Below are positions 7,574 through 19,723 of a DNA stretch of 64,000 nucleotides, piece after piece; position 1 is the first letter of the stretch; the number at the start of each line of letters is the position of its first letter. Origin of the DNA: Elusimicrobiota bacterium (GTDB lineage Bacteria > Elusimicrobiota > Elusimicrobia > UBA1565 > UBA9628); the NCBI GenBank assembly GCA_026388095.1, contig JAPLKL010000017.1, forward strand, positions 1-64,000, written 5' to 3'. Made by a program: the position numbers and the translations under genes. The notes under the pieces were generated by a model. That model saw nothing but the letters and a program-made list of their open reading frames with translations, made no database searches and had not been told where the DNA came from.

Positions 7574-8082
7574 CTTCTGGCCTCCACGTCTCTGACCGGG
7601 ATATGGCTCTCCAGGTCGCGGAAGGCCTTCTTCTTGGGGTCCCAGACGCGGCCAGCCAGCGGGAAACCCGGTTTCCAGCAGCGCACCATCTCGTCGCGGT
7701 TGGAGAAGGCAAACTCGTAGTCGAGGCCGTGCCAGACGGATTTGGGCTTGGTGGGGCAGGCTTCCTGGCAGAGCCCGCAGAAGTTGCACTTGCCCAGGTC
7801 CAAGGTGTACCACTCGACCTTGGGCACCCGCTTCTTGGTCTCCGGATGGACCTGGCTCTCGAGGGCTATGCACGCCGACGGACAGGCCTTGGCGCAGAGG
7901 CTGCAGGCGATGCACGTGGCCGGGTCGAAGAGCAGGGCCCCGCGGAAGGCGTCGTAAGGGACGAGCTTCTCGGTCGGGTACTGCACCGTCACCGAGGGCT
8001 TGAAGAGATAGCGCAAAGTGATCCAGAGCCCCTCCACGAAGGCCCAGGTCGAGCGGAAGACCAGGCGGAAGTAGGCGATCAT
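7570..8082 (-). CDS. nuoI: NADH-quinone oxidoreductase subunit I, 2x[4Fe-4S] ferredoxin-like
   Basis: A 170-residue electron-transfer subunit on the inner face of the membrane. Two complete cluster motifs are visible: CIACSLCAKACP near residue 57 and CNFCGLCQEACP near residue 99. These bind clusters N6a and N6b, which pass electrons toward N2 in NuoB. The ATG overlaps the nuoH stop (ATGA), which fixes the start. Because NuoEFG are absent from this cluster, these centres may be where an outside donor such as ferredoxin feeds in; that is inference. Confidence 0.97.
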   Translation of the reverse strand: MIAYFRLVFRSTWAFVEGLWITLRYLFKPSVTVQYPTEKLVPYDAFRGALLFDPATCIACSLCAKACPSACIALESQVHPETKKRVPKVEWYTLDLGKCNFCGLCQEACPTKPKSVWHGLDYEFAFSNRDEMVRCWKPGFPLAGRVWDPKKKAFRDLESHIPVRDVEARR

Positions 8083-9371
8083 CCCGGCCCCCAGCCGCGC
8101 ATGTGCAGGTAGACCAGGACCCCGGCGAAGCCGATGTTGGCGAACGACCAGGGCAGCAGGAACTTCCAGTTGAAATCCATGAGCTGGTCCACGCGCAGGC
8201 GCGGGAAGGTCCAGCGGAACCAGAGGAAGACGAACATCATGAGCATGGCCTTGCTGGTCATCCAGATCCAACTGGGGATGGAAAGCCAGGCCGGGATGAA
8301 GGTCGGATGGGGCAGGGGCGCGGCGCCGCCGCCCAGGAAGAAGACGGCCAGCAGGAAGGAGGCGAGCAGCACGTAGCCGTACTCCATGAGGAAGAACAGG
8401 GACCATTTCATGCCGGAGAACTCGGTGTGGAAGCCCGCCACCAGCTCGGACTCGGCCTCGGGTATGTCGAAGGGGGTGCGGTTGGTCTCGGCCACCGAGG
8501 CGATGAGGAAGAAGATGAAGGCCAGTTGGCCGGCCACCGGGTAGAAGATGAACCAGCGCGGGAAGAAGCCCAGCCAGTAGCCGGCCTGCGCCCGGTCGAT
8601 GGCCGCGAGGTCCAGCGAGCTGGCGAACATGAGCACCGGCACCACGGAGAAGCCGCGGGGCAACTCGTAGCTGACGATCTGCGCGGCCGCGCGCAGGCCG
8701 CCCAGCAGCGAGTACTTGTTCCCCGAGGCCCAGCCCGCCATGACCACGCCGATGACCGAGATGCTGGCGAAGGCGAAGACGTAGAGCACGCCCACGTCGA
8801 TGCGGGCCGCAGCCAGCTCGTCGCCGAATAGGACCGGGGCGAAGGCCATGACGCAAGGCGCGATGGCCACGATGGGAGCCAGTAGGTGCATGACCTGGTC
8901 CGCGGCCGCGGGAGTGACGTCTTCCTTGAGCAGGAGCTTGATCGTGTCGAGGATGGTCTGGGCCCAGCCGTGGAAGCCGCCCGCGTACATGGGCCCCATG
9001 CGCGACTGGATGTGGGCCGAGATCTTGCGCTCCCACCAGACCGCCCAGAGGCCGTTGGCCACGATGACGCCGATCACGCAGGTGAGCTTGACCAGGACCC
9101 AGACCCAGGCCACCACGGCCGCGGGCAGGCCCGAGCGCCCCAGCAGGGCCAGGAGCTTCTCCCCCCAGGCCGCCAGTTCGCCCACGCCAGCGCCCACCGC
9201 AGCGATGCCCAGGACGATGCCCGCCAGCCACAACGCGCCGGCCCGGTAGCGCGGCAAAGACCAGGGGTTGCGCCAGAGTTCCGTGGGCCAGTACCGGGTC
9301 CCGGTCAGGAGCTTGCCTGAGCGCCGGTTGAGGACGGGCTCGGGGTAGACCGGCTTCTCAGCGGGCGTCAC
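8079..9371 (-). CDS. nuoH: NADH-quinone oxidoreductase subunit H, extended N-terminus
   Basis: A 430-residue membrane subunit (ND1 homologue) forming the quinone tunnel and the joint between peripheral and membrane arms. Conserved blocks are WERKISAHIQSRMGP, GWASGNKYSLLGGLRAAAQ and AETNRTPFDIPEAESELVAG, all in place. About 105 residues precede the ERK motif, including an extra hydrophobic segment (about residues 45-65). Many NuoH proteins have only 30-40 residues there, so the N-terminus looks extended. The start overlaps the nuoD stop by 4 nt. Confidence 0.96.
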   Translation of the reverse strand: MTPAEKPVYPEPVLNRRSGKLLTGTRYWPTELWRNPWSLPRYRAGALWLAGIVLGIAAVGAGVGELAAWGEKLLALLGRSGLPAAVVAWVWVLVKLTCVIGVIVANGLWAVWWERKISAHIQSRMGPMYAGGFHGWAQTILDTIKLLLKEDVTPAAADQVMHLLAPIVAIAPCVMAFAPVLFGDELAAARIDVGVLYVFAFASISVIGVVMAGWASGNKYSLLGGLRAAAQIVSYELPRGFSVVPVLMFASSLDLAAIDRAQAGYWLGFFPRWFIFYPVAGQLAFIFFLIASVAETNRTPFDIPEAESELVAGFHTEFSGMKWSLFFLMEYGYVLLASFLLAVFFLGGGAAPLPHPTFIPAWLSIPSWIWMTSKAMLMMFVFLWFRWTFPRLRVDQLMDFNWKFLLPWSFANIGFAGVLVYLHMRGWGPG

Positions 9372-10498
9372 CGGTCCACTTCCCCCAGCACGATGTCGAA
9401 AGAGCCGAGCACCGCGATCACGTCCGCCACCTTCTTGCCCACCAGGATATCCTGCAGGATGGCCAGGTTTATGAAGCAGGGCGCGCGCACGTGGATGCGG
9501 TAAGGGGCCGCCCCCCCGTCCGAGACCAGGAAGATGCCCAGGTCACCGCGGGAGGCCTCCACGTGGGCATAGGCCTCTCCCGGCGGCGGCTTCGGGATCT
9601 TGGGCACCTTGGCGCTGAGCTCCCCTTCAGGGAGCTTGGCCAGAGCCTGCTCGACGATGCGCACGGACTGGCGCATCTCCTGGACGCGGCAGAAGTAGCG
9701 GTCCCAGCAGGAGCCGTGCTCTCCCACCGGCACATCGAAATCGTAGGCCTCGTAGCCGCAGTAGGGCTCGGACTTGCGCACGTCGTAGCTCACCCCCGAG
9801 CCGCGCAGGTTCGGGCCGGAGAGCCCCCAGGACACCGCCGCGGACTGGGAGATGAGGCCGACCTCCTTGGTCCGGGCGAGGAAGATGGGGTTGAAGGAGA
9901 GCAAGGTGTCGTACTCGTCGACGCGCGGCTTGAAGAACTCCAGGAACTCGCGGCACTTGGATATCCAGTCCGCGTCCACGTCCGAAGCCACGCCGCCCAG
10001 GCGGATGTAATTGTAGGTGAGGCGCGCTCCGCAAAGGGCCTCGTAGAGGTCGAGGATCATCTCCCGCTCCCGGAAGACGTAGAGGAACGGCGTGAAAGCG
10101 CCGATGTCGATGCCGTAGGTCCCCAGGAAGATCAGGTGGCTGGCGATGCGGTTGAGCTCGCACATGACCACGCGCAGGGTCTGGGCCCGGGGCGGGACCT
10201 GCGTGCCGAGAAGCTTCTCGGCGCTCAGGCAGAAGGCCAGGTTGTTGGGCATGGCCGAGCAGTAGTCCCAGCGGTCGGTCAGGACCACGCACTGGGCGTA
10301 GCTGCGCGCCTCCATGAGCTTTTCGGTGCCGCGGTGGAGGTAGCCGATGTCCGGGACGGCCTTGGTGATGACCTCGCCAGCCAAGGTCAGGCCCATGCGC
10401 AGCACCCCGTGCGTGGAGGGGTGCTGGGGCCCCAGGTTGACAAACATGGTGTCCATCTCGAGGCCGGGGCCACCCACGATCAACTCTTTACTCTTCAT
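9368..10498 (-). CDS. nuoD: NADH-quinone oxidoreductase subunit D
   Basis: A 376-residue quinone-binding subunit of the peripheral arm (49-kDa / NDUFS2 homologue, related to the large subunit of NiFe hydrogenases). Visible are NLGPQHPSTHGVLR (quinone-site His), DIGYLHRGTEKLME and LTDRWDY. By alignment from memory, Arg76 in TDRWDY matches the arginine that NDUFAF7 dimethylates in mammalian NDUFS2, and an NDUFAF7-family gene begins this cluster. NuoC and NuoD are separate here, not fused. The start overlaps the end of nuoC by 11 nt. Confidence 0.97.
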   Translation of the reverse strand: MKSKELIVGGPGLEMDTMFVNLGPQHPSTHGVLRMGLTLAGEVITKAVPDIGYLHRGTEKLMEARSYAQCVVLTDRWDYCSAMPNNLAFCLSAEKLLGTQVPPRAQTLRVVMCELNRIASHLIFLGTYGIDIGAFTPFLYVFREREMILDLYEALCGARLTYNYIRLGGVASDVDADWISKCREFLEFFKPRVDEYDTLLSFNPIFLARTKEVGLISQSAAVSWGLSGPNLRGSGVSYDVRKSEPYCGYEAYDFDVPVGEHGSCWDRYFCRVQEMRQSVRIVEQALAKLPEGELSAKVPKIPKPPPGEAYAHVEASRGDLGIFLVSDGGAAPYRIHVRAPCFINLAILQDILVGKKVADVIAVLGSFDIVLGEVDR

Positions 10499-11060
10499 CG
10501 TACTGGTCCTTCGCGTGGACGTAGTCCTTGCGCAGGGGGTGGCCCTTAAGGAAATCCGGGGTCAGGATCTTGATCAGGTTGGGGTGGCCGGCGAAGCGCA
10601 CGCCGAAGAGGTCGAAGGCTTCGCGCTCCTGCCAATCCGCTGCCGCGAAAAGGCCCGTGAGGCTGGGCACCTCGGCGCGGTCGCGGGGCACCTCCAGGCG
10701 CAGGAAGACCTTCCCGTTCTCCCCGAGGTTCCCGAACGACCAGAGCAGGTCCAGGACCGGGCGATAGTTGACCCCTGGACCGGGGACGGGGGCCAGGGGC
10801 GGAGCGGCGGGCTTGCGCGACAAGGGGTTCGGGTTGCTTCTGCACACGAAGCCGCTCATGCTCGTGGGCCCCAGCCAATCCACGGCGGTGACCATCTCGA
10901 GGTAGGTGAAGCCCAACTCGTCCTTGAGCAGGCGCGCGGCCAGCAGAAGGTCGGTCGGGGCCGCCAGCCGCACGGTGGGGTAGTCCTTGACCGGGGTAGC
11001 GGCCGCGGCCTTGGGCAGCGCCTTCAGGAGCCTCGCGACGACGTCTGAGCCGGCGCTCAT
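10488..11060 (-). CDS. nuoC: NADH-quinone oxidoreductase subunit C
   Basis: A 190-residue peripheral-arm subunit (30-kDa homologue) with no cofactor, which supports NuoD and NuoB. The signature region is clear near the C-terminus: [20 protein letters not shown] followed by [13 protein letters not shown]. The start ATG overlaps the nuoB stop (ATGA), and the stop lies inside the beginning of nuoD, so the three genes are tightly coupled. The middle (about residues 75-95) has a Pro/Ala-rich insertion not needed for the fold. Confidence 0.95.
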
Positions 11061-11617
11061 GCCTCTTCTCCAGCCGGGGTGCGGCTGCCTTTCTCCGCCT
11101 GCAAGGTCGCGCCGCCGCCGCGCTCCAGCTTCATGCGCATGATCTTCTTCTGCAGCTCCATGACCCCGTACATGAGGGCCTCGGGACGGGGCGGGCAGCC
11201 CGGGATGTACACGTCCACGGGCACGATCCGGTCCACTCCCTTGACCACGGCATAGGAGTCGTAGTAGGGCCCTCCGCAGTTGGCGCAGCTGCCCATGGCC
11301 ATGACGAAGCGAGGCTCCGGCATCTGATGGTAGATCTCGACGATGGGCGCGGCCATCTTTTTGGTGACCGTGCCCGCGATCAGGAGGAGGTCCGCCTGCC
11401 GGGGGCTCGGCCGGGGGATCACGCCGAAGCGGTCGAAATCGAAGCGGCCGGCGTAGGCCACCATCATCTCGATGGCGCAGCAGGCCAGGCCGAAGGTCAG
11501 CGGCCAGAGCGAGTACTTGCGGCCCAGGTCTATGATGTAGTCGGTGCTGGTGAGCACCACCTGGCCGCCCGGGACGGCCTTGGCGACCAGCGGGAACTTG
11601 TCGAGGACTATTCCCAA
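11057..11617 (-). CDS. nuoB: NADH-quinone oxidoreductase subunit B, likely TTG start
   Basis: A 186-residue subunit binding cluster N2, the last iron-sulfur centre before quinone. The four ligands are visible: the tandem pair in [10 protein letters not shown], the Cys in MAMGSC and the Cys in [10 protein letters not shown]. No ATG exists at the expected N-terminus. A TTG at 11617 opens a normal-length protein and overlaps the 3' end of nuoA by 10 nt. The same frame stays open further upstream, but that part is out-of-frame nuoA sequence. Function is certain; the start codon is less so. Confidence 0.93.
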
Positions 11618-11970
11618 ACCAGGGCCCCCTTGCGCCAGGCGAAGATCAAGCCGATGAAGAGGATGGCCAGGAAGACCGCCATCTCCGCCAGGGCCAGCGG
11701 CCCGACCTCTTTGACCGTCACCGCCCAGGGATAGACGTAGAGGATCTCCACGTCGAAGACCACGAAGAGCAGGGCGAAGACGTAGAAGCGGATGTTGAGC
11801 TTGACTTCGCTGGAACCCGTGGGCTTGATGCCGCATTCATAGGTGGTGAGCTTGCGGGCGTAGGGCAGGCTGGGGCGCAGGAGCTTGGCCGCGATCAGGG
11901 CGCCGGCGCCGAAGGCGACGCCGGCAGCAACGAAAAGGAATATGACGACGTAGGGGCTCAGCACGAACAC
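11608..11970 (-). CDS. nuoA: NADH-quinone oxidoreductase subunit A
   Basis: A 120-residue three-helix membrane subunit of complex I (ND3 homologue). The conserved loop [13 protein letters not shown], where the Cys sits in the quinone-site loop of the family, is followed by [22 protein letters not shown]. The start overlaps the 3' end of the methyltransferase gene midA by 13 nt, so the whole cluster is probably one transcript beginning at or before midA. Confidence 0.96.
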
Positions 11971-13031
11971 ACCCTCTTGGTCTGCACGAGGACCTTGAAG
12001 GCTTCGCCCATGCCTTCCGGATGGACGAGGGTCTTGAGCCTGGCCCGCTCGGTCACGGTCGCCGCATCCGACCCGGCCGGCAGCCAGTCCAGGAGGCCGC
12101 AGTCAAGGAGGAACCGGGCCATGGAGGTGAAGGACGCGCAGGCCAATCCCAGCTTTTCCCCCTCCGTGATGAGGGCGGAGAAGTCGACCGGCGCGGTGAG
12201 GTCGCGCGTCCCGGGGTCGGCGAGGATGCGGTCATCTATGGTATGGCGCCGGTAGCTGCGCGGGGCGTTGACGTCTCCGGGCCCGAAGCGCTTGCCGTAG
12301 TCGATGGTCGCCAGATACCCGCACTCCATGCGCTGAGCGACCTGGCCCAGCCACGGCCGGGCTTCCAGGCAGACGGCGTGCCTTTGCCCTTCCTCAAGAG
12401 AGGCGGCCAGGGCCTGGGCATGGGGTTCCAGAGCCCGGGTCGACAGGGCGCCCAGGACCGCGGCTCCGGAGCCGTCGGTGTAGAGCTCCTGGACGCGGCC
12501 GCGGCGCTTCTCCAGGACATGAAAGGGCAGGGCGTCGACCAGCTCGTTGGAGAGGAAGACCCCCCGGAAGACCGGCGCTTCGTTGAGACGCTCGCAGCCC
12601 AGGACGCGCCCGGGCATGTCCTCGAATCCGGCCAGGCTCTCCAGCAGGCGGGCGCGGCTGCGCTCCACCAGGACCCAGCAGAGCTCGGCCTCCAGGTCCG
12701 GGCGCTCCCGCCGCAGGCCTTCGCGCAACTGGTGTGCCAGAAGTCCCGCGCCGGAGCCCATCTCCACGACGGTGTAGGGCGGTGGGACGCTGCGGGAGCG
12801 CAGTCCGTCGAGCCAGCGCGCCAGGGCCCGGGACAGCGCCCAACCGAAGGCGGGATGCAGCTCCGGCGCCGTGTAGAAGTGCTCGGCCGGACGGCGCCGG
12901 GAGTAGAATCCCCGTTCTGGATGGTACAGGGCCGTCTCGCAGAAATCCCGGAATGTGCGCAGACCCTTGCCTTCCGCCGACGGCGGCGGGCAAGGGTGGC
13001 TTGCGGTCTTGGCGCGCTCCAGGGTTCCCAT
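11958..13031 (-). CDS. midA: MidA/NDUFAF7-family SAM-dependent protein arginine methyltransferase
   Basis: A 357-residue protein of the SAM methyltransferase family COG1565 (MidA; NDUFAF7 in mitochondria). Visible signatures are the N-terminal substrate region FCETALYHPERGFYS, the SAM-binding loop VVEMGSGAGLLA (about residue 88), FLSNELVDALPFHVLE, and TIDYGKRF near residue 244. The human enzyme dimethylates an arginine of NDUFS2, the NuoD homologue, and is needed for complex I assembly. Here the gene overlaps nuoA by 13 nt, so the same role on NuoD is a strong inference. No promoter is obvious in the 70 bp separating it from the upstream histone gene. Confidence 0.88.
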   Translation of the reverse strand: MGTLERAKTASHPCPPPSAEGKGLRTFRDFCETALYHPERGFYSRRRPAEHFYTAPELHPAFGWALSRALARWLDGLRSRSVPPPYTVVEMGSGAGLLAHQLREGLRRERPDLEAELCWVLVERSRARLLESLAGFEDMPGRVLGCERLNEAPVFRGVFLSNELVDALPFHVLEKRRGRVQELYTDGSGAAVLGALSTRALEPHAQALAASLEEGQRHAVCLEARPWLGQVAQRMECGYLATIDYGKRFGPGDVNAPRSYRRHTIDDRILADPGTRDLTAPVDFSALITEGEKLGLACASFTSMARFLLDCGLLDWLPAGSDAATVTERARLKTLVHPEGMGEAFKVLVQTKRVCSC

Positions 13032-13040
13032 TACATCCCG

Positions 13041-13064
13041 GCGGCCGGACCTGAGCCCGGCCGC
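13041..13064 (-). promoter_or_regulatory. Hairpin 10 nt before midA start
   Basis: A perfect 8-bp GC-only stem (13041-13048 with 13057-13064) around an 8-nt loop lies between the histone stop and the midA ATG. No T-run follows on the minus strand, so it is a weak intrinsic terminator at best. It could stabilise a processed end or limit read-through from the histone promoter into midA-nuo. Confidence 0.4.
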
Positions 13065-13100
13065 GAGACTCTTTGCTGTCCGTCTCTGAACGGTGGGATG

Positions 13101-13283
13101 CTACTGCAGGTCTTCGGCGCCGAGGGTCTTCTTCTTTCCATCGGCCTTCACGCGCTCGATGGAGGCGCCGATCATGGCGTTGATCTTGGTGGAAAGGGCT
13201 TCCACGTAGTCGCCGCCGGTCCTGAACCCGGCGTCCTTGACCATCTTCTTGACCTTGCTGACCACGACGAGAACCTCGGACAT
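13101..13283 (-). CDS. Bacterial histone-fold DNA-binding protein
   Basis: A 60-residue protein that resembles bacterial histones such as Bdellovibrio Bd0055. The helix plan fits a histone fold: alpha1 at about residues 6-17 (VVSKVKKMVKDA), loop GFRTGG, long alpha2 at about 25-49 (YVEALSTKINAMIGASIERV and on), loop DGKKKTLG, and a very short alpha3 (AEDLQ). The KKKTL loop matches the basic loop 2 that contacts DNA in histones. Archaeal histones are slightly longer with a full alpha3; the shortened alpha3 is typical of the bacterial group. A strong Shine-Dalgarno (AGGAGG) lies 6 nt before the ATG, with a near-perfect sigma70 promoter upstream, so it is probably abundant. It may shape the nucleoid. 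midA-nuo follows on the same strand. Confidence 0.82.
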   Translation of the reverse strand: MSEVLVVVSKVKKMVKDAGFRTGGDYVEALSTKINAMIGASIERVKADGKKKTLGAEDLQ

Positions 13284-13327
13284 GTATCCTCCTGGAAAAT
13301 TTCGGCGTTGTTCAAGAAAGGCGATAT

Positions 13328-13356
13328 ATATAATGAAATACGGAAGGAAGTGTCAA
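13328..13356 (-). promoter_or_regulatory. Strong sigma70-type promoter of the histone gene
   Basis: On the minus strand a perfect TTGACA (13351-13356) is separated by exactly 17 nt from TTATAT (13328-13333). Transcription should start near 13321, giving a leader of about 38 nt that includes the AGGAGG ribosome site. It is one of the best -35 matches in the window. Confidence 0.8.
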
Positions 13357-13389
13357 ATTTCGTGCTAAAACGGATGGCCACCCCAACGG

Positions 13390-13443
13390 AACCGGCGCCC
13401 CCTTATAGGGGGCGCCGGTTGCGCCTCGCCGAAGGCGAGGCGC
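13390..13443 (-). terminator. Two tandem perfect hairpins after the TPR gene
   Basis: Two perfect inverted repeats lie back to back between the TPR gene stop (13449) and the histone promoter. The first is a 13-bp stem (13390-13402 with 13408-13420, 5-nt loop); the second is a 10-bp stem (13421-13430 with 13434-13443, loop GAA). Neither has a T-run. They probably end or protect the TPR transcript and insulate the histone promoter. Confidence 0.55.
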
Positions 13444-13448
13444 TCGGG

Positions 13449-14186
13449 TTATTTGTCGGCTGGAAGAAGGTCCTTCAAGCCCGCAGCCTGGGCCGGTTCC
13501 AGCTCCACGGCCCGCGTCGCGTCCTGGCCGGCCTGCCGGCGCCGGCGCAGCGCGAGGCTGACGCGGGCGCGCAAGGCGAAGAAGGCGCCGTTCTTGGGAT
13601 TCAGCAGGATGGCCCGGTCCATGTCCGCGAAGGCCTCGGCCGCGCGGTGCAGGGCCAGCAGGGCCGCGGCGCGGTTGGCGTAGGCTGGGGCGAGGTCCGG
13701 GGCGAGCTTGAGCGCGCGGCCCAAATAATCCAAGGCGGTCTCGCTCTGCCGGTTGCGCACCGCGAGGAAGCCGAGCTCGTTGTAGGGGAGCGCGTTCTTC
13801 CGGTCGAGGCGCACCGAGGCGTAGAGCGCGTCGGCCGCCGCATCGTCGGCGCCCGCGTCGGCTAGGCGGAGGGCCCGCCGGTAGTAGGCGTCGCTCATGG
13901 ACGGCGCCAGCGCCGGCCTGAGCCCGGGCTTGAGCCGGACCGCGGCCTCGAAGTCCGCGATGGCTCCCTCGTGGTCGCCCAGCTTGTATCGGGAGGTGCA
14001 GCGGTTGGCCAGGGCACTGGCGTCTTCGGGACGGCGCTTGAGGGCCGCGTCGAAGGCCGCGGCGGCCTCCTGGTAGCGGCCCTGGGTCAAGAGGGCCACG
14101 CCGCGGCTGGCCTCGTCCTCGCAACGGGCCGGAGCGGCGGCGAGGGACAGGGCGGCTGACAGGACTGCGATGGATCGAAGAATCAA
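13449..14186 (-). CDS. Secreted TPR-repeat protein, TTG start beside tRNA-Met
   Basis: A 245-residue protein with a Sec signal peptide at residues 1-22 (MILRSIAVLSAALSLAAA) followed by about six tetratricopeptide repeats, for example ASRGVALLTQGRYQEAAAAF and PYNELGFLAVRNRQSETALD. TPRs bind partner proteins; no catalytic domain is present. The only start that keeps the signal peptide is TTG at 14186, just 5 nt past the 3' end of tRNA-Met on the same strand. No ribosome site fits in that gap, so the mRNA may be released by tRNA 3' processing. The partner protein is unknown. Confidence 0.8.
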   Translation of the reverse strand: MILRSIAVLSAALSLAAAPARCEDEASRGVALLTQGRYQEAAAAFDAALKRRPEDASALANRCTSRYKLGDHEGAIADFEAAVRLKPGLRPALAPSMSDAYYRRALRLADAGADDAAADALYASVRLDRKNALPYNELGFLAVRNRQSETALDYLGRALKLAPDLAPAYANRAAALLALHRAAEAFADMDRAILLNPKNGAFFALRARVSLALRRRRQAGQDATRAVELEPAQAAGLKDLLPADK

Positions 14187-14191
14187 AATCG

Positions 14192-14264
14192 TGGCGCGGG
14201 GTGGAATCGAACCACCGACCTATCGCTTATGAAACGACCGCTCTAACCCCTGAGCTACCGCGCC
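14192..14264 (-). tRNA. tRNA-Met (CAT)
   Basis: A 73-nt cloverleaf on the minus strand. The acceptor stem GGCGCGG/CCGCGCC pairs fully, the D arm is GCTC/GAGC, the anticodon loop is TTCATAA and the T arm is GGTGG/CCACC. The CAT anticodon could also be tRNA-Ile2 after lysidine modification. CCA is not encoded. Confidence 0.93.
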
Positions 14265-15163: not shown

Positions 15164-18100
15164 ATGTCCAAGATTCGCCGTCTCATCGGCGGCGGCGCGA
15201 TGTCGCTGTGCTGCCTGACCTGGCTCCGGCCGGGCCCTGTATGGGCCGCGGAGAGCCGGGTCGCCTTGCGGGGCCATGTCTTGCCGCTGGCGCGCATGGC
15301 GACCAGGCTCGGCAGGCTTCCCACCGACGAAAATGTGGATCTGGGCTTGGTGGTGCGTCTCGACGAGGACCTGCTGAACCAGACGCTGGCGCAGTTGTAC
15401 GGACCGAACGCCCCGGCGCAGAAGCGCTTCCTCAGTCCCGCTGAATTCGCCCGGAAGTTCGACCTGGCCGCCAAGAGGCAGAAGCTCAAGGATTTCGCTC
15501 AAGCAGCCGGACTCGTCGTCGATGCGGCCGAGGATCGGCCGGAAAGCCAAATCGTCAAGGTTTCGGGCACCGCCGGCCTCGTGGAGAAAGCCTTCGGCGT
15601 CCAACTGCAGCGCTTCCGGGGCGCCGACGGGCGGCTGTTCCGCGCGCACGAGACGGAACCGCTGGTCCCCGCCTCTTTGGCTGCGCATCTGCGCGCCGTG
15701 TCTGGACTCTCCAACCTCCGAGGCGTCATGAGGCCTCACCTGCGCCGCCACCAGCCCGCCTCGCAGCCCTCCGGGGAGACGGGGATATCGTCGCCCCGCG
15801 CCGCTCGCCCCTCCACGCTGACTGGGACCGGCCCCAGCGGCGGCCTGGCCCCTGCCAACATCAAGACGATCTACGGCTTGAGCGGGGCGTTGACCGGTTC
15901 CGGCCAGACCGTGGCCGTCATTGAGTTCGACGGGTACAGACCCGGGGATATCCCCCTCTATGAGTCGCAATTCAGCCTGGCCAGCCCGCCGGTGACCTTC
16001 GTGTCGGTCGACGGCCAGCAGAATCTCTGCGGCCCGAATCAGGACACGAACTGCAATTCCGTGTCGCCGGCCAGCGACGGGGGCATGATCGAGGTGGCGC
16101 TTGATATCGAACTGCTGATCGCGCTGGCGCCCGGCGTCTCTGGGATCCTGGTCTACACGCCCCCCAATACGACGGCGGGCTTGCTGCATGCCTACAACAA
16201 GATGGCCACGGACAACACGGCCAAGGTCATCAGCGTCTCCTGGGGCGCGGATATCGATTCTGTGGGAGGGGCTGCCCTGACCGCAGAGTCCCAGATCTTC
16301 GCGCAGTTGGCGACCCAGGGGCAGTCGGTCTTAGCCGCCTCGGGAGACTGCGGCTCCTATGATCAGCCTAATGGATCCGGTGGTTGCATCACAAACAATG
16401 GGTATCGAGTCGATGACCCCGCCTCCCAGGCGTACGTCACCGGGGTAGGAGGAACCAGCCTGTCAGGGACGCTTTCACCCCTCTCGGTGACTGAAACGAC
16501 ATGGAACAGGCTTTCTGCTGGACGCGGAGCCGGAGGCGGGGGCATAGCCAATTACGTCGAGGGTGCGACGACCTATTGGCCCATCCCAGGCTACCAGAGC
16601 GGGGTCGCCGGGAAGTATTCCACGGTGTATCGCAACGTCCCGGACGTGGCGCTCAACGCGGACCCCGACTCCGCCCCTTACAGCATCTGCGTCGGAGGGA
16701 CCTGCAACGACACCTCCTACTACACGACCCTCATCGGCGGCACCAGCGCAGCGACCCCCCTCTGGGCGGCTCTGACCGCTTTGGCCAACCAGAAGCTAGT
16801 GGCCAGTGGATTCGGGGTCGTGGGATTCGCCAATCCCTCCCTCTACCAGGTGGCGGGAGGCTCCTACGGCAGCACTTTCAACGACATCACCAGCGGCGGC
16901 AACGGCCTATCGGGAGTCTATCAGGCCGGGACCGGCTACGACAACGTCACGGGCTGGGGTTCGTTCAAGGGGGACGCCCTGATCAACGCGATCTACGCGC
17001 TCTCCGCGCCGGCGTCGGCGCCGCAGAACTTCACGGCGACCACGCTCGGGACCAGTTCCATCACCTGGACCTGGGACAGCGTGGCGGGGGCCTCATCCTA
17101 CCATGTCTACTACTCCAGCAATACCGCCCAACTCGCCGCCAATGTCGGTGCCACCCGCGCCACCTTGGATTTCCCCCCCAACACCGTCTCGGGCGTCATG
17201 GTCAAGGCCGCCAACGCCGCGGGCGAAGGGCCCGGCGGGACTTCACCGAGCACCGCCACCTTCGCGCTGGCCCTGACCTCCACCAACAGCACCTTCGCGC
17301 ATATCTCGAGCATCACCGTGTCCTGGAACACGTGCGCGGCCAATGCCTGCGCTGGCTATGTCCTGCAGGCTTCCCCAAACGCCGACTTCTCGGCGCCGGT
17401 CTTCTCCAGCGTCACTCCCAACTATGCCCTCGGCCGGCTCCAAGTCTCGGGGCTCAGCAAGCTGACCAAATACTACCTCCGTGTGGGGACCCTCAACTGG
17501 TCCCGCGGCGCGAACTACTACACCTTGCCTCAGACTACCACGACCCTCACGGACCTGGTCGCCCCCGGCCCCGGTTCGCCGGAGTTCTCGGGAATCACGG
17601 CCTCGGCCATAGTCTTCAATTGGACCCGCAACGGTAATCCCTATCCCGCGACCTACCAGGCCGACTGCTCCAGCATGGCCACCTATGTTCCTTCTACCAG
17701 CCAGTCCGGCAGCGAGCTCTACAGCGCGACCTTCTCGAACCTCATCCCCAACACCAGCTATTACTTCCGGGTGCGGGCCGTGGGTGGCGGGGCCTATCTG
17801 AACACCGACCCGGCCGCCCCGCCCGCGACCTTGGCCGCGGCGCCGGCAGCCGCGGCCGTCCCATTCGCCGCCGTCTACAAGACCTCCATGACCGTGGCTT
17901 GGTCGGACAACGGCAACGCGCTGGACACCCTCTACAAAGCCGAGGCCTTGGACTCGGGTTCGACCGTCGTGACCTCGTCGGTCACCCGCAACCGGACCGC
18001 GACGCTGACGGGACTGGACAAGAACACGCTCTACTCGGCGCGGGTCTGGGCCCTGAATCGGACGGACGGCACGAAGGTGGGGCCGTACGCCATCGGCTCG

Positions 18101-19723
18101 ACCTACACCTTGGTCGACCAGCCGGTGCTTGGGCTCGAGCCCTTCTCCAGCCTGGGCTTCGACGGCTTCACCTTCTCATTCACCGGCAACAACCCCTCGG
18201 GCACCCGGTACATAGTGCAGGTCACGACGGCCACGGGAGCCGTGACGGTGGCCGCTTCTTCCAACACCGCCAACGCCTCCGCCTCGTTCTCGGGGCTGCT
18301 TTCCAACGCGACCTACTACGCTGCGGTCGCGGCCCTCAACCAAGCCGGCTCCCCCACTCCCTTCACTGTCGCCAAGGCCACGGCCACGCAGGTCGCCACA
18401 CCCTTGCCGCTGACCAGCCCGGTCACCGTTCGCAGCAGCACGACGTTGGGCTTCGCTTGGGGTTCCGGGACCCTCGCCCCCGGCACCACGTACCTGGCGG
18501 AAGTCTCCAGCTTTTCGTCGACCTTCAGGTTCGGCGTCGTCAGCTCGTCGACATTGAACACCTGGACTCTCGCCTCTGGGCTGCAGCCCAACACCAGCTA
18601 TTACGCCCAGGTGCGGGCCCGGAGCGCCAGCTCGGACCCGGATGGCCTGCCCCTGGGCTTGGGGACCTTGGCCGCCACGCTGCCGACCCCGCCGGCCGCG
18701 GCCGCTTTCCAGTGGGTCTACTACACCAGCGCGACCGCGGTCTGGAAGCCTCTGCCCATAGCCCCCTCCAGCACCACCTGCGAAGGCTACCGCCTGGAGG
18801 TCTCGACCTCGCCGGGCTTCACCGGGGTCGTCTACTCCAGCACGGTCGCCAACGGTGTCTCCACGGCCGCGGTGGACGGCCTCGCCTTTGCCACGGCCTA
18901 TTACGCGCGCGTGGCGTCGCTGAGCCCGGAAGGCCAGCCCAGTTGGCTGTCCTTCGGCTCGACGACCACGGCCTTGCCGCCGGTCTCCTCCGGGACCGTG
19001 ACCGGCACGGGGGCTTTGACGCTGGTCCTGTCCACCGCCGTCTTCCCGGGACTGACCGCCGTCCGGGTGTCCATCCCGGCCGCGGCCTTCCCCGTGGGTA
19101 CCAAAATCAGCGCCTGGGCTGAGCTGAGCACGGACCTTTATCAGGCGCGCTCCAACGAGGTCGCGGGCCTGACGCCGTTCGGAGCCGGCGTGGGCATCGA
19201 GCTCTCGGCCGGCGGACTGCAGCCCAACCCTCCCTGGTGCGTAGCCTTGGTCATGGGCTACGATTCGGACCAGGTGCCGCTCGGCCAGGACCAGAGGGCC
19301 ATGCGCCTGTTCCGCTACGATACGGTTGCTGGGCAATGGACCTTGGAATCGTCCTCCAAGGTCGATGTCGCGGGCCGCACGCTCATGGCCTGCGTCTCCC
19401 ATTTCTCGCTCTTCGCGCCGTTCTTCATCACCGCGGCCAGCGACCTCTCCTCCGTGCACGTCTTCCCGCAGCCTTGGGAGATCGGCGACGCGGCCAGCCC
19501 TTACTGGGCGAGCGCCCTGCAGTTCTCCAACCTGCCCGCCGACGCGCGAGTGAGAATCTTCACCGTGACCGGGGAACTGGTGGACGAGGGCACGGCCGCC
19601 GGCGGCGCGCTTTCTTGGGACGGCAACAATCGCTACGGCCACAAGGCGGCGTCCGGCACGTACCTCGTGTCCATCGAATCGGGCGGCCAGAAAGAGGTCC
19701 GGCGGGTGGTGCTCATCCGATGA
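15164..19723 (+). CDS. Giant secreted sedolisin (S53) protease with Fn3 repeats and FlgD-like C-terminus
   Basis: A 1519-residue exported protease. Residues 1-28 are a signal peptide. A pro-kumamolisin activation domain (about 35-195) precedes the S53 catalytic domain (about 220-610). The Ser-Glu-Asp triad is visible: Glu310 and Asp314 (IEVALDIELL), oxyanion Asp395 (AASGDCGS) and Ser528 (GGTSAATPLWAAL); the metal-site region follows near DNVTGWGSFKGD. Sedolisins are acid-active endopeptidases matured by removal of the pro-domain. Seven or so fibronectin type III-like repeats fill about 620-1290, followed by a beta domain and, in the last 85 residues, a FlgD-like/gliding-type domain (FTVTGELVDEG, YGHKAASGTYLVSI). 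That domain is common on surface proteins and may be a sorting signal. The stop overlaps the PorV-family gene (ATGA). Confidence 0.92.
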   Translation: MSKIRRLIGGGAMSLCCLTWLRPGPVWAAESRVALRGHVLPLARMATRLGRLPTDENVDLGLVVRLDEDLLNQTLAQLYGPNAPAQKRFLSPAEFARKFDLAAKRQKLKDFAQAAGLVVDAAEDRPESQIVKVSGTAGLVEKAFGVQLQRFRGADGRLFRAHETEPLVPASLAAHLRAVSGLSNLRGVMRPHLRRHQPASQPSGETGISSPRAARPSTLTGTGPSGGLAPANIKTIYGLSGALTGSGQTVAVIEFDGYRPGDIPLYESQFSLASPPVTFVSVDGQQNLCGPNQDTNCNSVSPASDGGMIEVALDIELLIALAPGVSGILVYTPPNTTAGLLHAYNKMATDNTAKVISVSWGADIDSVGGAALTAESQIFAQLATQGQSVLAASGDCGSYDQPNGSGGCITNNGYRVDDPASQAYVTGVGGTSLSGTLSPLSVTETTWNRLSAGRGAGGGGIANYVEGATTYWPIPGYQSGVAGKYSTVYRNVPDVALNADPDSAPYSICVGGTCNDTSYYTTLIGGTSAATPLWAALTALANQKLVASGFGVVGFANPSLYQVAGGSYGSTFNDITSGGNGLSGVYQAGTGYDNVTGWGSFKGDALINAIYALSAPASAPQNFTATTLGTSSITWTWDSVAGASSYHVYYSSNTAQLAANVGATRATLDFPPNTVSGVMVKAANAAGEGPGGTSPSTATFALALTSTNSTFAHISSITVSWNTCAANACAGYVLQASPNADFSAPVFSSVTPNYALGRLQVSGLSKLTKYYLRVGTLNWSRGANYYTLPQTTTTLTDLVAPGPGSPEFSGITASAIVFNWTRNGNPYPATYQADCSSMATYVPSTSQSGSELYSATFSNLIPNTSYYFRVRAVGGGAYLNTDPAAPPATLAAAPAAAAVPFAAVYKTSMTVAWSDNGNALDTLYKAEALDSGSTVVTSSVTRNRTATLTGLDKNTLYSARVWALNRTDGTKVGPYAIGSTYTLVDQPVLGLEPFSSLGFDGFTFSFTGNNPSGTRYIVQVTTATGAVTVAASSNTANASASFSGLLSNATYYAAVAALNQAGSPTPFTVAKATATQVATPLPLTSPVTVRSSTTLGFAWGSGTLAPGTTYLAEVSSFSSTFRFGVVSSSTLNTWTLASGLQPNTSYYAQVRARSASSDPDGLPLGLGTLAATLPTPPAAAAFQWVYYTSATAVWKPLPIAPSSTTCEGYRLEVSTSPGFTGVVYSSTVANGVSTAAVDGLAFATAYYARVASLSPEGQPSWLSFGSTTTALPPVSSGTVTGTGALTLVLSTAVFPGLTAVRVSIPAAAFPVGTKISAWAELSTDLYQARSNEVAGLTPFGAGVGIELSAGGLQPNPPWCVALVMGYDSDQVPLGQDQRAMRLFRYDTVAGQWTLESSSKVDVAGRTLMACVSHFSLFAPFFITAASDLSSVHVFPQPWEIGDAASPYWASALQFSNLPADARVRIFTVTGELVDEGTAAGGALSWDGNNRYGHKAASGTYLVSIESGGQKEVRRVVLIR

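Follow-up and report, generated by a model that had tools for sequence, protein, structure and literature searches.

A predicted small histone of the bacterial dimer group encoded close to complex I genes in Elusimicrobiota

Background

Can a reading frame of 60 codons in an Elusimicrobiota genome encode a histone, and of which type would it be? The question is raised by a locus in a 64-kb stretch of DNA (the window), for which an earlier note had proposed, from the letters alone, a bacterial histone like Bd0055 of Bdellovibrio with its own consensus promoter. The note added that histones are known from few bacterial phyla. Elusimicrobiota members, including the "bacterial dimer" group, are already on record in the parts of Hocher 2023 (PMC10627809), Schwab 2024 (PMC11390915) and Hu 2024 (PMC11317129) used here, so the window histone does not lengthen the list of histone phyla. 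No experimental work on any Elusimicrobiota histone was found.

Gene and histone fold

The coding sequence of the alpha3-truncated histone occupies positions 13101..13283 of the minus strand, stop codon included, and is translated into the 60-aa protein MSEVLVVVSKVKKMVKDAGFRTGGDYVEALSTKINAMIGASIERVKADGKKKTLGAEDLQ. The frame is taken as a real gene because an ortholog of full length is encoded by 97 of the 341 Elusimicrobiota genomes, many columns are invariant across 80 distinct sequences, and most of the changes relative to the two nearest relatives (8 of 11 and 10 of 16) affect the third position of a codon. The letters and coordinates given earlier for the frame and for AGGAGG, TTGACA and TTATAT are all correct on recheck. 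A second histone copy in the source genome was rejected, the sole candidate (E 0.39) being noise.

Phmmer against all PDB chains yields just four matches below E 0.01, each a prokaryotic histone: HBb/Bd0055 (8fvx, 8.5e-8; 8cmp, 9.4e-8), HLp of Leptospira (9qt0, 4.5e-7) and HTkC of Thermococcus (9f2c, 1.1e-4). A 47-sequence profile returns the same families (HBb 1.6e-11, HTkC 7.9e-9, HLp 1e-8), and neither the single-sequence nor the profile search of PDB chains gives a significant match to any unrelated fold. Hmmscan of the protein matches no family of Pfam or NCBIfam, and PF00808 (CBFD_NFYB_HMF) gives no match at its curated cut-off in hmmscan or in the genome search. This is no argument against a histone, since the PF00808 model fails to reach so divergent a family.

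The AlphaFold2 monomer built from the alignment is of moderate confidence (pLDDT 82, pTM 0.55) and has helices at residues 8-17, 24-48 and 56-59, i.e. a long central alpha2 and two strap loops. Alpha3 (56-59) is a single turn, and the chain ends at residue 59-60 in 80 of 80 orthologs. VIA-align places HLp and HBb chains on top (Z 6.9-7.1, rmsd 1.5-2.0 over 56-59 residues), with tetrameric HLp and dimeric HBb tied on structural score, followed by HTkC (Z 6.7); histones of archaea and eukaryotes come next, with Z about 5. The comparison with Bd0055 suggested earlier thus gives a monomer Z of about 7, and that with archaeal HMfA/HMfB (PDB 1B67, 5T5K) a Z of 5.3. A Z below 8 is weak by itself for a small helical protein, which is offset here because sequence and structure searches point to the same families. 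The top sequence and structural matches are all histones, and no non-histone family matches better. Judged by these matches and by the fold model, the 60-aa protein is a genuine small alpha3-truncated histone; the identity, helix plan and shortened alpha3 proposed in the earlier note are all borne out.

Dimer type or FtF tetramer

HBb is the best PDB match of the window histone, by single sequence as well as by profile, and this sequence clustering would place it in the "bacterial dimer" (HBb) group. Its positions equivalent to the HBb dimer interface are hydrophobic. The strongest competing assignment is an FtF tetramer wrapping about 60 bp, as HLp of Leptospira perolatii (PDB 9QT0). HLp ties for the best structural match and shares with the window histone the fold, a very short alpha3 and an L1 (GFxTxGD) of equal length, whereas L2 is one residue longer in the Elusimicrobiota orthologs.

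The residues of the dimer-dimer contact speak against a tetramer. According to the definitions of dimer and FtF types, the FtF dimer-dimer residues R48 and N52 are absent from bacterial dimer histones, and FtF tetramers require R49, N53 and R55 in HLp numbering. At the position of HLp R49 (44 here), K is found in 75 of the 80 orthologs and R in five, the window histone among these, a point in favour of the tetramer for this protein. The position of N53 (48 here) is D/E/A in nearly all orthologs (D/E in 66/80, N in 1/80; D48 in the window histone). The clamp position in the pattern of HLp R55 is K in most orthologs. Compared with the RKTxxxxD motif and its RD clamp, the window histone has K51-K52-T53...D58, position 51 being K in 76 and R in four of 80. 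Other Elusimicrobiota also have HLp-like histones as distinct paralogs in which R-x3-N-x-R is complete, many of them alongside the dimer type. A tetramer is therefore unlikely, and the dimer type is retained.

These paralogs form a second histone type among the weaker phylum matches, e.g. L139 (KRAAANGRKTVRSHDF); this protein carries the FtF pattern, and its best match is HLp (E 4.9e-10). HLp-like FtF paralogs (such as KRAxANGRKTVRxHDF) lie in the middle of each of the loci L131-L133, L135 and L137-L141, mostly in genomes that also carry the dimer type. The parts of the published histone surveys covered here list no FtF histones from Elusimicrobiota. A third histone-like protein, again with an R-x3-N-x-R pattern, occurs in L134, L136 and L142 (e.g. 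MAELIVSKSGTKKAVKGCNVSGDFYKALDKEVRDIINRAVSRAKSNGRKTVRPGDL).

Conserved residues and loops

HBb of Bdellovibrio bacteriovorus (PDB 8FVX, 8CMP, 9EZZ, 9F0E) has the same single histone fold with a short alpha2 and a one-turn alpha3, and shares the N-terminal MxEVLVVxSKVKK with S9-K10, K12 and K16, the KT of L2 and D58. Among the 80 distinct orthologs, on which all conservation counts are based, S9, K12, K16, R21, T53, G55 and D58 are found in 80/80, and K10 and E57 in 79/80; the equivalents of the HBb DNA contacts S9, K10, K12, K16, K52 and T53 are kept in 79-80 of 80. Strict invariance of KKTLGAED was rejected as an artefact of seeding the first search with this motif. The counts are not bound to that seed: they also draw on the profile search of the phylum, for which the motif is not required and which reveals variation at K51, L54 and A56.

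The likeness to Bd0055 claimed in the earlier note stands for the overall group but not for the loops. L1 of the window histone is one residue shorter than in HBb and L2 one longer; R21 replaces N22, K51 replaces R51 of the RD clamp, E57 (79/80) replaces R57, V replaces T8, and the chain ends at 59-60. Because N22, R57 and T8 are exchanged, the geometry of DNA contacts must differ from that of HBb. In HMMER alignments R21 aligns with HBb N22 and with the R of MRVS in HTkC, at a position which we take to be that of R19, the sprocket arginine, in HMfB. HTkC of Thermococcus kodakarensis (PDB 9F2C) is an archaeal FtF histone sharing the fold and the L1 arginine at the sprocket position; it is a tetramer and its similarity is lower. 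HMfA and HMfB, the archaeal nucleosomal histones, share the common fold, but have a longer alpha2 and alpha3 and polymerise into hypernucleosomes. Like the window histone, HMfB has an arginine at the sprocket position and, following KT, an AED motif.

In the parts of the literature used here, the sprocket arginine is described as not conserved among bacterial histones (Hocher et al., PMC10627809) and as missing in HBb, and in HBb simulations N22 makes the most DNA contacts, with R57 the second strongest (PMC11317129). No description of the invariant R21, the K51 clamp, the longer L2 or E57 was found in the parts of PMC10627809, PMC11390915 and PMC11317129 covered.

Distribution and HU

The 50 orthologs retrieved from genome contigs are all from Elusimicrobiota as far as titles tell, three being titled only "bacterium", and Candidatus Obscuribacterium magneticum is among the carriers. 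The profile search of the 341 Elusimicrobiota genomes gives matches in 99; the 97 full-length orthologs score at least 98 bits, and other matches at most 34 bits, except for one partial match at 64 bits. The dimer type is absent from nearly all genomes of families f7, f8 and f21. Mobile origin was rejected, with no relatives in phage, plasmid or viral contig collections.

HU is encoded in 315 of the 341 genomes (185 of the 192 good ones) and once in the source genome (C48). Replacement of HU by the histone is rejected on these counts; since HU is present, in the source genome as elsewhere, the histone adds to it.

Gene neighbourhood

Within window positions 8079-13283, one strand carries, in this order, the histone, Methyltransf_28 and nuoABCDH. 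The gene of the Methyltransf_28 (PF02636, NDUFAF7-type) methyltransferase (11958..13031, minus strand) is the next gene, 69 bases downstream, and nuoA (PF00507; 11608..11970, minus strand) is the first complex I gene. Upstream lie the gene of a TPR-repeat protein (13449..14186, minus strand), found at the same place in a few relatives, and tRNA-Met (CAT) (14191..14264, minus strand), a same-strand neighbour in many relatives of the order. At 15164-19723 on the plus strand, a 1519-aa reading frame appears by eye to encode a secreted kumamolisin (S53)-type protease-like protein with repeated fibronectin-III-like segments.

In 64 of the 74 histone genomes of the class, covering 12 of 13 families, the histone gene is followed on the same strand by nuoA at a distance of 110-1272 bases. 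In the other classes of the phylum this holds for none of 23 genomes. In some families nuoA follows the histone directly, and in some a UbiE-type gene lies between them (one example tested). This linkage departs from the parts of Schwab et al. (PMC11390915) used here, in which alpha3 histones are described as single-gene operons. No description of histone-nuoA synteny was found in the parts covered of that paper, PMC10627809 and PMC11317129. Many genomes of the class (G000 and family f1, for example) have, beside the histone-linked nuoA, another copy that has diverged further (E about 1e-21); some genera have only the divergent nuoA, and part of these lack the histone.

A histone that regulates the complex I operon behind it, or shares its regulation, would fit this linkage, the short gaps to Methyltransf_28 as next gene (11-69 bases) and the region 13000-13500, where no minus-strand terminator is predicted. 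Such a role is nevertheless improbable: the histone is retained without a strong nuoA in four genomes (G216, G219-G221), is never joined to nuoA in the 23 genomes of other classes, and many genomes of family f8 have nuo without the histone. Obligate coupling of histone and complex I is rejected by the genomes with one and without the other. The linkage hence looks positional, and we read the arrangement as a conserved position, perhaps with shared transcription, rather than as function.

Promoter and expression

Of the consensus promoter claimed in the earlier note, the -35 box stands and the -10 region is weak. TTGACA (13351..13356, minus strand) is perfect, and near relatives (L001, L008, L027, L029) have it in the same position. 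Scored against TATAAT, the -10 region (13327..13333, minus strand) is either TTATAT, at 13328-13333 with a 17-base spacer and 3/6 matches, or TATATA with an 18-base spacer and 4/6. A strict promoter scan of the region reports none. Promoter presence is nonetheless above chance, as -35/-10 pairs scoring at least 9 lie upstream of 20 of 50 homologs, compared with 8.5% in shuffles. The Shine-Dalgarno sequence AGGAGG was recognised correctly; it is located at 13288..13293 (minus strand), four bases before ATG, and recurs in homologs.

The CAI of the gene is 0.72, compared with 0.64 +/- 0.10 for the genes of the window (81st percentile). As a sign of high expression this codon bias is uninformative, for 38% of 60-codon segments reach the same value. 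High expression of the window histone is plausible by analogy with HBb.

Proposed function

The reading preferred here, with a probability of roughly 0.7, is a homodimeric nucleoid protein that, by analogy with HBb, would bind minor grooves nonspecifically and bend DNA alongside HU. Homology to solved histones, the monomer fold prediction and residue conservation form its basis; dimerisation, bending, the sprocket role and abundance are what we infer from them. Two chains would pair into a handshake dimer through alpha2 (L30, I34, M37) with V11 and L59. The dimer would contact DNA at the backbone of minor grooves, irrespective of the sequence, through S9-K10-x-K12 and K16 of alpha1 and through the paired loops L1 (R21-T22) and L2 (K51-K52-T53), and would bend DNA as HBb does, in company with HU. 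R21 probably enters the minor groove in the manner of the sprocket arginine in histones of archaea and eukaryotes. That the protein keeps the histone fold without DNA binding and serves another role is very improbable, for although some prokaryotic histone-fold groups are without DNA-binding residues (PMC11390915, in the parts used here) and the HBb contacts R57 and T8 are missing, the alpha1 lysines, R21, K52 and T53 are essentially invariant.

The nucleoid reading may be carried further, to a version that is rather unlikely: sprocket arginine, Lys-Asp clamp, longer L2 and AED might make a distinct dimer variant that grips minor grooves in a more archaeal-nucleosomal-like manner than HBb, and the retention of the gene in front of the complex I operon in one class might tie the supply of nucleoid protein to respiration.

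Conclusions

The histone group is already known; the loop features and the nuoA synteny are the part for which no description was found in the portions of the literature covered. The invariant arginine at the sprocket position offers a single-residue test of its part in bending or wrapping among the smallest histones. Dimer-type and HLp-like histones together with HU in one phylum provide material on how bacteria acquired histones.
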